This document shows positions 37,452 through 41,533 of a stretch of 41,664 nt of DNA, piece after piece; positions within the stretch are counted from its first letter, which is position 1, and every line of letters starts with the position of its first letter. Position numbers and translations under genes: made by a program. This stretch comes from Thermoplasmata archaeon (GTDB lineage: Archaea > Thermoplasmatota > Thermoplasmata > Thermoplasmatales > GCA-001856825), in assembly GCA_023256615.1 (NCBI GenBank), contig JAGDXO010000037.1:1-41664 (forward strand), in the 5' to 3' direction. The notes beneath the pieces are model-generated. The model was not told where the DNA came from. It saw only the letters and a program-made list of their open reading frames with translations, and ran no database searches.

Positions 37452-37590
37452 GGGAGCATGGGGTAGTCAGGTATCCTAGCGGGCTCCAGTTAGGGGTTGA
37501 TTAAATGTGGGTCATCTGACCATGATGAGAAACTGGAGCGATGACCCTAAGAGAGACCCGCAGATCTGGGTTCAAATCCCAGTGCTCCCA
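37452..37590 (+). tRNA. tRNA-Trp(CCA) with intron at position 37/38
   Basis: The acceptor stem pairs GGGAGCA (37452-37458) with TGCTCCC (37583-37589), with discriminator A37590. The D arm includes TAGTCAGGTA. The anticodon stem pairs GCGGG (37479-37483) with CCCGC (37557-37561). The loop reads C-T-CCA-G before the intron and A after it, and the T arm is CTGGG-TTCAAAT-CCCAG (37566-37582). The CCA anticodon at 37486-37488 gives tryptophan. The intron occupies 37490-37555 and has a relaxed bulge-helix-bulge at its borders. The 3' CCA is not encoded. It follows L41e and is overlapped on the other strand by the integrase gene. Confidence 0.95.
37490..37555 (+). ncRNA. tRNA-Trp intron forming a box C/D 2'-O-methylation guide
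   Basis: The 66-base intron is closed by TTAGGG (37490-37495) and CCCTAA (37545-37550). Inside are a weak box C TTGATTA (37497-37503), guide 1 (37504-37515), box D' CTGA (37516-37519), a perfect box C' ATGATGA (37522-37528), guide 2 (37529-37540) and a box D variant ATGA (37541-37544). Guide 2 contains AACTGGAG, complementary to CTCCAGTT of the anticodon loop; the fifth base before box D pairs with C34. Guide 1 contains GTGGGTC, pairing (one G-U) with GACCCGC; the fifth base before D' pairs with C39. Methylation of positions 34 and 39 by this intron is established in Haloferax. No known fact conflicts with the same job here. Confidence 0.88.
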
Positions 37591-38506
37591 TCATGTTGGG
37601 TTCGCTCCCATCATTTTTTACGTGAATTTGAACCTCAGGTTCTAATTTCTTATGAAAGGAAAACACGTCTTCCACCTTGTCCCTGACTTTTTCTCCAAGC
37701 TCCTTTTGCGAAATATGAGTGTACCTTGTTGTTGTATCGATGCGGGCATGTCCCACGAGAATTTGAACCTCACGTATATCGACTCCCGCTTTCCAGAGCG
37801 ATGTGGCGTAGTAGTGCCTGAGGCTATGGGGATGAAGTTGAGGGATTCCCACTTTAGTTCCCACGTACTTGACGAGGTTTCTCAGTTTGGTATAATTATA
37901 CCTTCCGGTTCTTGTGGTGAAGAGTGCCTTCGGGTCGCTCTTGTATCTGTAATTCTCGACGTAATCTTTGAGTTCATCTGACATCCATTTGGGTAGAGGC
38001 ACCGTCCTGTCCCTCTCTCCTTTCTCGGATCGTATGTAGATTGAGTCCCCTTTTATATCCTCCAAGTTTACCTTTATGAGTTCCCCAGCTCTCATGCCAG
38101 TTGTCGTAAGAAGATCGATTATGGCAAGGTTCCTTGTCCATGTATACTTATCCCTCCTGGAAAGGCAGAATTCCCTTGCCTTTCTTATCTCCCCGTCTGT
38201 GGGGAGAAATGGATCCGGATCAGGTTCTTTCTTCAGCTTAGGGAGAACGATATTGTATCCAAGGAACTCATACCATCTCTGAAGATCCATCAGTTCAATT
38301 CTCAACGACTTCTTTTTGATTCCCTTTCTCAATCTCTCTTCTACATACTTGAAAATTGATCCGGTATCAACTTTCCACACATCGATGTTCTTTGAAATCG
38401 TCTTTATCCTCCTGGTCCTGCGTTCAGCTGTTGAAACCGAGTCTCCATGCCCTATCCTGTAGGAAATAAATTCCTGCAGCTTCATCTCAAGTCTGTCATC
38501 GCTCAC
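37547..38506 (-). CDS. Tyrosine recombinase / integrase (XerD-like)
   Basis: The 319-residue protein has an N-terminal SAM-like DNA-binding domain (about 5-90) and a catalytic domain with all expected residues: R139 in GMRAGEL, a hairpin lysine near K162, H227 and R230 in HPHSLRHYY, H253 in LVGHARID, and nucleophile Y262 in RYTHIS. It starts with GTG at 38506 overlapping the previous gene's stop. The last 15 codons (about 305-319) are read antisense through the tRNA T arm and acceptor end, giving the tail MGALGFEPRSAGLS, and the stop TAG (37547-37549) lies in the tRNA intron. The natural end of the protein before integration may therefore differ. It is the last gene of the leftward operon. 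Confidence 0.92.
   Translation of the reverse strand: MSDDRLEMKLQEFISYRIGHGDSVSTAERRTRRIKTISKNIDVWKVDTGSIFKYVEERLRKGIKKKSLRIELMDLQRWYEFLGYNIVLPKLKKEPDPDPFLPTDGEIRKAREFCLSRRDKYTWTRNLAIIDLLTTTGMRAGELIKVNLEDIKGDSIYIRSEKGERDRTVPLPKWMSDELKDYVENYRYKSDPKALFTTRTGRYNYTKLRNLVKYVGTKVGIPQLHPHSLRHYYATSLWKAGVDIREVQILVGHARIDTTTRYTHISQKELGEKVRDKVEDVFSFHKKLEPEVQIHVKNDGSEPNMMGALGFEPRSAGLS
37584..37614. repeat. Partial duplication of the tRNA 3' end (probable attachment-site remnant)
   Basis: GCTCCCATCAT occurs at 37584-37594, at the tRNA 3' end, and again at 37604-37614. Each copy is preceded by TGGGTTC, but in the second the ten bases AAATCCCAGT between the two blocks are missing. This looks like a decayed second copy of the T arm and acceptor end. 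It fits repeated or imprecise integration at the tRNA. A T run at 37614-37619 directly after it may terminate the tRNA transcript. Confidence 0.5.
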
Positions 38507-38864: not shown

Positions 38865-39097
38865 AATCTTGCCCTCCCTTCCTCAAATACCCTGGCAATT
38901 GCCTTGACCTCGTTCTCAAAATACCTGAATGATGAATCGCTGGGAACTCTGACATCCCTCCTAAATGTTCTGACTATATTCTCCCCGTAGCTTACTTTCT
39001 CTATTAATTCAATTACTATTCTTACCTTAAGCTCGGGGTCTTTTTTATTTTTATTTGCAGGGCTGATGTAATCCATGGAAACTGAAGACAGGGTCAT
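38861..39097 (-). CDS. Hypothetical protein of the integrated element
   Basis: The 78-residue protein has a central beta-rich stretch (LKVRIVIELIEKVSYGENIVRTFRR contains two strands) followed by a helix ending in EVKAIARVFEEG. I recognise no family. It overlaps the upstream recombination-type gene by four bases and the downstream Cys/His-rich gene by four bases, so it is translated as part of the operon. A small DNA-binding accessory of the neighbouring annealing-type protein is conceivable but unproven. Confidence 0.6.
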   Translation of the reverse strand: MTLSSVSMDYISPANKNKKDPELKVRIVIELIEKVSYGENIVRTFRRDVRVPSDSSFRYFENEVKAIARVFEEGRARL

Positions 39098-39762
39098 GCC
39101 TTCGCACCCTCCTTTAATTTGCCTTTCAATTCCTCTATTTTATTATGCGCTGCCTGCTTCGTCATCTTTTTTAGCGAATCAATATCAGGATCAAGATTCA
39201 ATTGTCTCAGTAAATCAGCCATGAATTTAACCTGTCCATCACTTGCAAGTTCTATTCCCCTCTTATCTGCGTCAAAATCAGCGTTTGGGCTTACGACATC
39301 CTGGGCAGGTGTTTCATCATTTCCCTGTGTTATTTCCTCTGCGCTCACTTCTCCACCACCTACTAGATTGGATATTGCTCTGTTGATTGCCCTTGTCGCT
39401 GCTTTTGTCTCAAGGTTATGGACGGAGAACCTGACCCTTGAATCGAATTCTGTTGAATCGCATGATGCAATTTCCTCGCTCACCCTTCCATTCGGAGCCG
39501 TTGCCCTTGCCTTGACATGCACAATTTTCAGGTTTGAGGAATAATCTCTCTCAACAGAGATTATCTCAGTTGAGATATTGAAAGCAAGCGCAATTTTCCT
39601 CCAGCCGGACCTCTTGATGTATTTCTTGCCTGCTATCACCATTGCATCATCTTTCTGCAGAACCTTTTCCTTGAGCTCAAGGAATTTCCCGAGTGCACTG
39701 ATGGTTCCCTCAACATCAGGACTGACTACTGCGATTGATGATATTTCCACATCTGAAGTCAT
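39094..39762 (-). CDS. Probable single-strand annealing/recombination-associated protein
   Basis: The 222-residue protein has a basic core with YIKRSGWRKIALAF, a beta-sheet region, and the segment TKAATRAINRAISNLVG with GGGEVSAEE after it. The C-terminal 45 residues (ASDGQVKFMADLLRQL and the helix after it) resemble the small C-terminal module found after many phage annealing or recombination proteins. The SGW/ATRAxxRA pattern recurs in proteins encoded by archaeal viruses and plasmids. On that basis I suggest a ssDNA-binding or annealing role; I cannot name the family with certainty. It overlaps RHH and hypothetical genes on either side by four bases. Confidence 0.45.
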   Translation of the reverse strand: MTSDVEISSIAVVSPDVEGTISALGKFLELKEKVLQKDDAMVIAGKKYIKRSGWRKIALAFNISTEIISVERDYSSNLKIVHVKARATAPNGRVSEEIASCDSTEFDSRVRFSVHNLETKAATRAINRAISNLVGGGEVSAEEITQGNDETPAQDVVSPNADFDADKRGIELASDGQVKFMADLLRQLNLDPDIDSLKKMTKQAAHNKIEELKGKLKEGAKA

Positions 39763-39893
39763 GCTGTGACCTCCTTTTCAAGTTCCTTTATGGCCTGTCT
39801 AATGGCATGTGATTTGTTGGCTGCTTTGCCTTCTTCCACGAGTTTCTGAAGGAATAAATTTTCATCCTTCGTTATTGAAACGCTTATTTTCAT
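39759..39893 (-). CDS. Ribbon-helix-helix protein, 44 residues
   Basis: The frame reads MKISVSITKDENLFLQKLVE, then a turn and a second helix HAIRQAIKELEKEV. The pattern of one beta-strand with alternating Ile/Val/Ser and two helices is the CopG/Arc (ribbon-helix-helix) fold. The gene is too short for usual cut-offs. Its ATG follows a GGAG-type ribosome binding site and its stop overlaps the next ATG (ATGA). It is the first gene of the leftward operon and is divergent from a second RHH gene at 40003. Autoregulation of the operon is likely by analogy. Confidence 0.75.
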   Translation of the reverse strand: MKISVSITKDENLFLQKLVEEGKAANKSHAIRQAIKELEKEVTA

Positions 39894-39935
39894 TTTCCCA
39901 CTTTCTCCTACCAAGTAATACCACCATCCCATATA

Positions 39936-39974
39936 TACTTTACTACTTTCTCATACTTTTCCTTACTTAACTTT
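39936..39974. promoter_or_regulatory. TACTTT repeat array between divergent RHH genes (probable operator)
   Basis: TACTTT occurs at 39936-39941, 39944-39949 and 39954-39959, with the related TACTT at 39964-39968 and AACTTT at 39969-39974. Spacings of 8, 10 and 10 bases place the copies on about the same DNA face. The array lies between TATA candidates for both divergent genes (about 39930-39938 leftward, 39969-39980 rightward). Small RHH proteins bind short tandem repeats cooperatively, so these are good candidate operators. A related repeat occurs at 40480-40494. Confidence 0.5.
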
Positions 39975-40002
39975 ATAATTCCATTATTCCTACTAGGTAG
40001 CA

Positions 40003-40137
40003 ATGAAGAAAAAAATCTCTGTTTCGATTGATTCTGATCTTCTGGAATGGGCTGAGAATGAAGTGAAGAAGAAACGTTTTGCATCTTTGTCTCACGCCCT
40101 GAATTTTGCACTGAATGAACTGAAACAGAAAAAATAG
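40003..40137 (+). CDS. Ribbon-helix-helix protein, 44 residues
   Basis: The frame reads MKKKISVSIDSDLLEWAENE, then KKKRFASLSHALNFALNELK. The strand KKISVSID and the two helices separated by a short turn fit the CopG/Arc fold. It is below normal length cut-offs and runs against the otherwise leftward operon. The ATG is preceded by AGGTAGCA and a TATA candidate about 28 bases upstream. It is divergent from the RHH gene at 39759-39893 and may compete with it for the shared TACTTT sites (inference). Confidence 0.75.
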   Translation: MKKKISVSIDSDLLEWAENEVKKKRFASLSHALNFALNELKQKK

Positions 40138-40143
40138 GCAACA

Positions 40144-40311
40144 TCATACCAGAACCTCCTCAAACATTATCTTGAAATTTCTTTCTGCGATTTTATTTGC
40201 AATTTTTCCATATTTTATTTTGAAAAATTTAAAATTTTCTCGTAACAGTTTCATCCTTTTTGCGTATTGTTCATCATCTGTCGGAGCAAAGATAAGTTCC
40301 TCGACTGTCAT
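40144..40311 (-). CDS. Small basic protein next to an RHH gene
   Basis: The 55-residue protein starts at the ATG overlapping the RHH stop (40308-40311) and reads MTVEELIFAPTDDEQ, then a Lys/Arg/Phe-rich helix and a hydrophobic end FEEVLV. A longer frame upstream exists, but the ATGA overlap favours 40311. I recognise no family. An RHH gene followed by an overlapping small gene is the layout of some toxin-antitoxin pairs, but the protein has no recognisable toxin motif. Confidence 0.5.
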   Translation of the reverse strand: MTVEELIFAPTDDEQYAKRMKLLRENFKFFKIKYGKIANKIAERNFKIMFEEVLV

Positions 40312-40460
40312 GCTGTGGCCTCCTGCTCTTTCAGTTCTTTCCTTACACATTCCAGAATGAATTCCTGCTTCGATCTGTATCTTCCTTTAGAAACCACTTC
40401 AATTTCCTTATCCAATTCTTTCGGGATCTTCAACATAACTGCTCTAACTTCTCCTGTCAT
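40308..40460 (-). CDS. Ribbon-helix-helix protein, 50 residues
   Basis: The frame reads MTGEVRAVMLKIPKELDKEI, then a turn with GRYRSKQEFILECVRKELKE and a short tail. Strand, helix, Arg-Ser turn and second helix fit CopG-like antitoxins or repressors. It is shorter than usual cut-offs. It is divergent from another RHH gene at 40534, with a 73-base gap that holds AAAGTA repeats and a TATA element usable in both directions. Its stop overlaps the next ATG by four bases. Confidence 0.72.
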   Translation of the reverse strand: MTGEVRAVMLKIPKELDKEIEVVSKGRYRSKQEFILECVRKELKEQEATA

Positions 40461-40479
40461 GTTTATCCTTAGATATCCT

Positions 40480-40505
40480 AAAGTAAAGTAAGTATTTAAA
40501 CTTTA
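40480..40505. promoter_or_regulatory. AAAGTA repeats and shared TATA element between divergent RHH genes
   Basis: AAAGTA occurs at 40480-40485 and 40485-40490, followed by AAGTA at 40490-40494; on the opposite strand this is TACTTT, as in the array at 39936-39974. Next to it TATTTAAACTTTA (about 40493-40505) can serve as TATA box for both divergent genes, 30-45 bases from each start. This suggests one regulatory system acting on both gene pairs. Confidence 0.45.
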
Positions 40506-40533
40506 TGATTGCATGTGTATCTGTAGATTGATC

Positions 40534-40737
40534 ATGGTAAAATATACTGAAACCAAGTCAATAATGTTGAAATTACCAATAGGAACTTATGAAGAAATAC
40601 TGGACATCATGAAGAGAGAAAATAAATGGCTAACTCCTCAGGACTTTATAAAAGGGGCATTGATTAAGGAGATAGAGAAATGGAAAAAAGAAAGAGACGC
40701 ATACGGTCATCCCGACCGCATGGCTCATGATAAGTGA
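40534..40737 (+). CDS. RHH-like small protein of the integrated element
   Basis: From the ATG at 40534 the protein has 67 residues: a first strand VKYTETKSIMLKLPI, helix YEEILDIMKRE, a turn and helix TPQDFIKGALIKEIEKWKKE, and a charged tail. This resembles a ribbon-helix-helix domain with a short extension. The upstream start at 40513 would place the gene nearly on its predicted transcription start, so 40534 is preferred. It is divergent from the RHH gene at 40308-40460 and ends four bases before the convergent gene at 40741. Confidence 0.6.
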   Translation: MVKYTETKSIMLKLPIGTYEEILDIMKRENKWLTPQDFIKGALIKEIEKWKKERDAYGHPDRMAHDK

Positions 40738-41005: not shown

Positions 41006-41533
41006 TTAAGTAGTATAATATAAGACTATAGAATTTGCAATGCTGATGGTGTCCGAGGTTATAAGGTTCGAATTATAGAACACCAACGAATACTGTCCAG
41101 GAGAGAGATTTGCACTTATCGTTGCTCCCTGATTATCTCCAGATGTCCAGACATAGCCGTTTCCTCCTGGATTCTGCGTGAACTGTCCGAACTGGGTAGG
41201 AGTCAGGATGTATGCATTCACATCTGCGGACGAAGTGTATGAACCTGATATTGAGGCCGATGTTGCAGAGCTTGGAACAGTGAAATTCATATAATAATAA
41301 TATCCTGGGGAGAGGCTTTGAACTGTGCCTGAGCTCGAGATTGTTATGCTATATGTATGTGGCGTATTATTTGTATTATTTGAATTATTTTGCGATCCGT
41401 TCATGGATGCGCCGATCGCTATGATCACAATAATGACGAGAACAACTGCGATAGCAACATATATTAGTTTCCTGTTTTTTCCTTTTCCACCCGGGACAGG
41501 TTGAGGAGGTGGAGGCATATTTTGAGATGTCAT
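41006..41533 (-). CDS. Membrane-anchored surface protein with beta-sandwich-like domain
   Basis: The 175-residue protein has a short Pro-rich cytoplasmic start (PPPPQPVPGGKG), one transmembrane helix (about 24-43), an Asn/Ser/Thr-rich linker (45-58) with sequons, and an extracellular domain (about 60-175) rich in Tyr, Ser and Gly with alternating strands, resembling pre-peptidase C-terminal or other beta-sandwich modules. The start is supported by GGTG nine bases upstream. It may be a virion, pilus or cell-surface component of the element, or a chromosomal gene if the element ends earlier. Nothing coding is certain in 41534-41664. Confidence 0.7.
   Translation of the reverse strand: MTSQNMPPPPQPVPGGKGKNRKLIYVAIAVVLVIIVIIAIGASMNGSQNNSNNTNNTPHTYSITISSSGTVQSLSPGYYYYMNFTVPSSATSASISGSYTSSADVNAYILTPTQFGQFTQNPGGNGYVWTSGDNQGATISANLSPGQYSLVFYNSNLITSDTISIANSIVLYYTT

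Follow-up and report, generated by a model that had tools for sequence, protein, structure and literature searches.

In phage P22, arc is the first gene of its operon, and Arc and Mnt have separate operators. The tiny repressor CopG likewise stands first in a replication operon, ahead of RepB (pMV158), and ORF56 has the ribbon-helix-helix (RHH) fold. Lysogeny-type decisions in euryarchaeal elements have, to our knowledge, been little studied, the best archaeal case being SSV1 F55. In the P22 immI region, Mnt represses arc and ant, and Arc inhibits mnt (PMC11016777). The specificity of Arc and Mnt is ascribed to the N-terminal strand (Knight and Sauer 1989, as cited in PMC3325190), and RHH proteins read DNA with alternate strand residues, such as Lys18, Val20 and Arg22 of AmrZ (PMC3325190). 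In pRN1 of Sulfolobus, the tiny repressor orf56 is the first gene of the replication operon with orf904 (PMC4234260). F55 of SSV1 is a small archaeal viral RHH protein that occupies tandem repeats over the BRE or start sites of early promoters, and it maintains the carrier state (PMC5569661). In the open literature, as covered in part and mostly through titles and abstracts, no account of divergent RHH pairs from Thermoplasmatales elements was found.

The window (the whole stretch of DNA analysed, 41,664 nucleotides) is an entire contig from the genome assembly of an acid-loving archaeon with near relatives in the Thermoplasmata; the assembly has 1.2 Mb and is 84% complete. Chromosomal genes extend to about 37.25 kb and are followed by an intron-containing tRNA gene and then by an integrase gene (Table 1). 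The integrase frame ends inside the 3' exon of the tRNA gene, and the stretch from there to the contig end at 41664 is therefore an integrated element truncated by the assembly. The tRNA was read by eye as tRNA-Trp (CCA). Its long intron has a C/D-box-like sequence, as is known for archaeal tRNA-Trp, and the gene was missed by ARAGORN. The search for the element's right end, by way of a second copy of the tRNA 3' sequence, was negative: the genome has one copy, and the element is seen only as far as the contig end. The last gene before that end (41006-41533, - strand) encodes a 175-aa protein with one N-terminal membrane helix, a proline-rich start and no clear family. The contigs of both closest relatives (L002 and L031) also stop a short way upstream of the integrase, a pattern suggestive of an element that is variable or multi-copy there. 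In KMA_Bin16, the 91% identical integrase has downstream of it a Cas10/Cmr2-like gene (L002, 5251-8019, - strand; GGDD motif recognised by eye) with type III CRISPR-like neighbours.

Table 1. Positions of genes and predicted regulatory features in the window
Feature	Position	Strand	Basis
tRNA gene with intron; attachment site of the element	37452..37590	+	Rfam tRNA, 48.4 bits
Tyrosine recombinase (integrase), last gene of R1 operon	37547..38506	-	Pfam Phage_integrase, 2e-30
R1-operon gene, 51 aa	38503..38658	-	ORF; 4-base overlap with both neighbours
R1-operon gene, 69 aa	38655..38864	-	ORF; 4-base overlap with both neighbours
R1-operon gene, 78 aa	38861..39097	-	ORF; 4-base overlap with both neighbours
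222-aa protein, first gene after R1	39094..39762	-	PHROG 22961 (unknown function), 7e-9
R1, 44-aa RHH protein, first gene of leftward operon	39759..39893	-	ORF, sub-threshold profile score, conservation
Predicted operator array A, two TACC half-sites (39909, 39919) at 10-bp spacing, close to predicted R1 transcription start	39909..39922	+	
Predicted R1 TATA box (ATATATA), at gap between arrays A and B	39931..39937	-	Read by eye
Predicted operator array B: TACTTT at 39936, 39944 and 39954, TACT at 39964; last three 10 bp apart	39936..39967	+	
Predicted R2 TATA box (TTTATAAT); would give a leaderless R2 transcript	39972..39979	+	Read by eye
Predicted operator C: inverted half-sites TACTAGGTA just before R2 start	39991..39999	.	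Conserved in G058, G039 and G081
R2, 44-aa RHH protein with the highest conservation of the four; apparently monocistronic	40003..40137	+	Conservation, model
55-aa gene after R3, coupled by ATGA overlap	40144..40311	-	ORF; no family match
R3, Arc-like RHH protein of 50 aa; left gene of pair 2	40308..40460	-	PHROG 582, 3e-5; relatives 49-51% identical in G072 and G075
Pair-2 inverted repeat ATCCTAAAGT / ACTTTATGAT around shared TATA-like TATTTAAA; holds both TACTTT copies (40480-40490, -)	40475..40509	.	Operator role is an inference
R4, 67-aa RHH protein, right member of pair 2	40534..40737	+	Conservation, model

The original prediction placed four small RHH-like genes in this element as two divergent pairs, R1/R2 and R3/R4, and all four frames were present. 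Its gene starts agreed with the conserved cores, R1 beginning at M-KISVSI (39893) and R4 at MVKY (40534); the longer mechanical starts at 39932 and 40513 were not favoured. Pfam RHH_1, a model that is weak for such short proteins, narrowly missed R1 (19.3 bits, cut-off 20.5) and did not match R2, R3 or R4. The predicted folds of R2 and R4 (pLDDT 84) have an extended N-terminus followed by two helices, at residues 11-22 and 29-43 in R2 and 18-29 and 35-56 in R4, in the strand-then-two-helices order of RHH proteins; the models are of single chains, and the RHH strand pairs only in the dimer. ParD RHH domains were the top PDB neighbours of the R2 model, weakly (E above 1). Searches of PDB sequences with R2 and with a G074 relative of R4 returned nothing useful, no relatives of R2 were found in phages or plasmids, and a pattern scan of IMG/VR gave no relatives of R2, R4 or the 222-aa protein. 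The CdrS cell-cycle regulator model scored 21.5 bits, far from its cut-off of 100.

The same layout was recovered in related elements, with seven copies of the divergent R1/R2 pair in five other Thermoplasmata genomes among 100 relatives searched (G008, G058 and G081, and two copies each in G039 and G070). Identity to the window proteins was 61-77% for R2 and 48-57% for R1. Within the order, 8 of 117 genomes had R2; within the class, 30 of 400 had more distant relatives. Synonymous differences were saturated and nonsynonymous ones few (R2: pS 0.83, pN 0.18; R1: pS 0.86, pN 0.29), so R1 and R2 are selected proteins, under strong purifying selection. Every R1 found faces a divergent R2, and in the window and all five genomes one of the two divergent RHH genes heads an operon.

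As the original prediction had it, the setting is a mobile element, here found to be integrated. R1 heads an operon that ends in the integrase; R2 appears monocistronic. The R1 stop codon overlaps the next start (ATGA) in the window, G058, G081 and G008, and GGAGG or a similar sequence is encoded in the C-terminus of R1 in most of these cases (GGAGG in the window). The gene directly after R1 differs among elements, being that of the 222-aa protein in the window, an integrase in G008, Prim-Pol in G081 and an MCM helicase in G039; Prim-Pol also follows R1 in G070. The integrase has copies 85-91% identical in two family relatives. The 222-aa protein could not be named: 100 genomes held one relative, the family model had no further match in 400 genomes, and the only PHROG is one of unknown function. 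That relative, in G068, is 42% identical and is encoded close upstream of an integrase. The two share the block TRAINRAISNLVGGGEVSAEE, and by eye the 222-aa protein is reminiscent of Rad52-type annealing proteins.

In G039, pair 1 sits in a stretch of about 19 kb that is present twice at 99.9% identity (L107, G039:C1:1810703-1829678; L108, G039:C1:1840135-1859109). Its products are MCM, a DnaA-like ATPase, numerous small proteins and one of 1602 aa with the look of a secreted protein. The stretch is likely a provirus; no capsid gene was recognised in the two copies.

If the RHH proteins were antitoxins of toxin-antitoxin modules, the weak resemblance of R1 to ParD (21.3 bits, cut-off 46.2) and the nearness of the R2 fold to ParD domains would be accounted for. 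The gene after R1 is, however, Prim-Pol, MCM, an integrase or a protein without a toxin family match, and R2 stands alone. ParD-type identity was rejected for R1, which no toxin family adjoins, and an antitoxin role for these proteins is very improbable.

Tandem short repeats overlapping likely divergent promoters had been noted for these genes, and were borne out for the facing RHH genes of the element. TACTTT, described as the repeat common to both intergenic regions, does occur in both, at 39936, 39944 and 39954 (+) in the pair-1 gap and at 40480 and 40485 (-) in the pair-2 gap. It was not enriched over the whole window (33 copies versus 28.5 expected), although each gap exceeded its own composition. 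Three copies in the 109-bp pair-1 gap were more than in shuffles of that gap (P=0.006), a density found nowhere else in the window; two in the 73-bp pair-2 gap were also more than in shuffles (P=0.003), and that density recurred at two places outside both gaps. Across six R1-R2 gaps, 13 copies of TACTTT were counted versus 2.2 in shuffles.

The signal in the pair-1 gap is better described as a wider half-site, TAC[CT], in a 10-bp register. In the six gaps, TAC[CT] occurred 42 times on one strand versus 9 on the other. Pairs spaced exactly 10 bp numbered 17, versus 2.2 expected (0 of 20000 random placements), a pooled statistic that overstates independence because the six gaps are homologous; tests of each gap alone, which do not pool, gave P from <0.0005 to 0.004. 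The shared geometry is best explained by selection, beyond recent ancestry, because synonymous sites are saturated. From the R1 start, half-sites fall at about 5, 15 and 25 (array A) and about 50, 60 and 70 (array B), with an inverted pair at 97 and 102 just before R2. Array B falls between the TATA boxes predicted for R1 and R2 and covers the predicted BRE of each. A genome-wide count with a 10-bp TAC[CT] triad as the pattern gave two matches in the 1.2-Mb genome of the window, one being the pair-1 gap. Over six genomes, 6 of 10 matches were inside R1-R2 gaps, and the reversed control pattern was commoner overall (30 matches), so that the triad is not a common word.

The predicted DNA-contact residues are K-S-S in both R1 and R2. 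Among eight pair types, partners agreed at 16 of 24 contact positions versus 4.9 expected (P=0.00025), with the RHH strand alignment set by hand and two of the eight types (G067 and G097) not matching; at buried positions of the same types partners were no closer than chance (P=0.17). More distant R2 relatives, which lay outside the definition of the motif, were split by contact residues, and TAC[CT] was counted in the 125 bp upstream. The four with K-S-[SA] had 5, 9, 9 and 10 half-sites, and the 13 with other residues had 0-2. The chance of this ordering among the 17 is 1 in 2380, relatives within groups not being fully independent. Contact residues K-S-[SA] are thus linked by computation to the half-site TAC[CT].

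Two loci carry other contact residues. An R2 relative with Q-S-T contacts (L153, G301:C35:7096-7227, - strand) has upstream tandem TATCCTATG repeats at exactly 10 bp, with the same geometry and a different half-site. At L069 (G074:C24) both RHH partners have Q-N-R contacts, and the gap between them holds CTATCATATGATAG; contacts and repeat presumably resemble the P22 Arc strand and the Arc half-site, a resemblance not used as evidence.

That TACTTT-like words arise from the AT-rich composition of archaeal promoters would agree with the lack of enrichment over the window. Dinucleotide shuffles of the same gaps, the 10-bp phasing, the strand bias, the reappearance of the signal in elements that have diverged and the residue test on out-of-sample relatives all stand against it, and a chance origin of the repeats is largely refuted, with next to no probability left.

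Pair 2 differs from pair 1 in both contacts and operator. R3 and R4 have contact residues A/S-M-K versus K-S-S in R1 and R2, the two TACTTT copies of the pair-2 gap overlap at 5 bp, and the 10-bp array is absent. Relatives of R3 and R4 form a divergent pair in G072 and G075, at sites without pair 1. In G074, and at another place in G072, the genes opposite R4-like proteins are other RHH-like genes; G058 has pair 1 with a different pair 2 next to it. The pair-2 gaps of G058, G072 and G075 have no TACTTT and hold other repeats instead; pair 2 here may use the half-site AGATA, as in G072 and G075. Since TACTTT is missing from the pair-2 gaps of relatives and forms part of an inverted repeat here, pairs 1 and 2 are separate modules. 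The four genes had been taken for one cross-regulating switch, in which all four proteins would act on TACTTT in both gaps. The excess of the word over composition in the pair-2 gap and the stacking of the two pairs in G058 as well would suit that reading; the contact residues, the 5-bp overlap and the gaps of relatives speak against it, and it is improbable. Cross-talk between the pairs through TACTTT is possible but unsupported. Nor was the proposed duplication of one divergent module supported, because other genomes have either pair type on its own, and each type is closer to its counterparts there.

The reading that we favour, and hold to be rather likely, is that R1 and R2 form a two-repressor switch on a shared operator that controls the activity of the element. 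In the mechanism that we infer, with its binding, repression, promoter positions, assignment of states to proteins and bistability, R1 and R2 would both bind TAC[CT] in the gap between their genes, as dimers side by side every 10 bp on one face of the DNA. Array A would cover the R1 transcription start, operator C would cover the start of R2, and the BREs of both promoters would lie under array B; with both promoters covered in this way, it is proposed that each protein can shut its own promoter and that of its partner. Translation of R1 would be coupled to that of the leftward operon, whose last gene in this element is the integrase; R2 would be made alone. With R2 dominant, the operon would be off and the element quiet; with R1 dominant, R2 would be shut off and the operon would run until damped by R1. 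Pair 2 would be another divergent RHH module, of separate specificity. For the proposed R1/R2 switch, neither an inducer nor an antirepressor gene was identified.

The proposed switch resembles P22 immI in layout, not by a sequence family link, in that two small RHH repressors would control each other and a downstream operon; its payload is comparable to that of pRN1 orf56-orf904. From P22 it differs in its archaeal promoters and in an operon with integrase, Prim-Pol or MCM in place of an antirepressor; no product of the R1 operons had a family match to an ant-like antirepressor. R1 and R2 moreover share contact residues and half-site, whereas the operators of Arc and Mnt are separate. With F55 it shares the proposed occlusion of promoters by a small RHH protein at tandem repeats, but F55 is a single protein, its target promoters are several and its repeats are ATAGATAG; here two proposed repressors face each other over one local TAC[CT] array.

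In G070 and G081, R1 comes before Prim-Pol, the arrangement of pRN1 and CopG, and a small RHH gene lies upstream of a replication gene in G039, G070 and G081, directly so in G039 and G081. R1 could then be an autorepressor of the CopG/ORF56 type that keeps the level of a replication or integration operon constant, with R2 as a second, perhaps constitutive, brake on the same operator and no bistable decision. The 44-aa R1 directly before Prim-Pol (G081) or MCM (G039) is placed like orf56 before orf904 in pRN1 (PMC4234260), and an operator common to both proteins does not alone give bistability, as two adjacent autorepressors could lack two stable states. In the window and G008, however, an integrase is present in the operon and the visible part has no replication gene that was recognised, which makes copy number a less than obvious target. 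Mutual control is suggested by the divergent R2 and by the operator at the R2 start. This account is rather doubtful, though it deserves more weight than the four-gene and antitoxin readings. The locus also departs from pRN1 and CopG in having a second, divergent RHH gene on the same predicted operator, opposite every R1 found in place of a single regulator, and in that the operon may carry an integrase only. R1/R2 was filed under none of P22, pRN1 and F55, because it lacks ant and has a second regulator, and because F55 is a single repressor.

As a two-repressor switch, R1/R2 would comprise two 44-residue proteins and about 110 bp, a complete candidate switch. Three strand residues are readably linked to the half-site, K-S-[SA] with TAC[CT], so that protein-DNA specificity, co-evolution of partners and immunity to superinfection can be tested on very small parts. 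More tentatively, mobile elements of Thermoplasmata may use a modular family of two-RHH switches, in which partners share and jointly change their contact residues and each element has a private operator code. If so, immunity groups would follow from the operator codes, much as they follow from repressor specificity in temperate phages, and some elements (this one and that of G058) would stack two modules with different codes.
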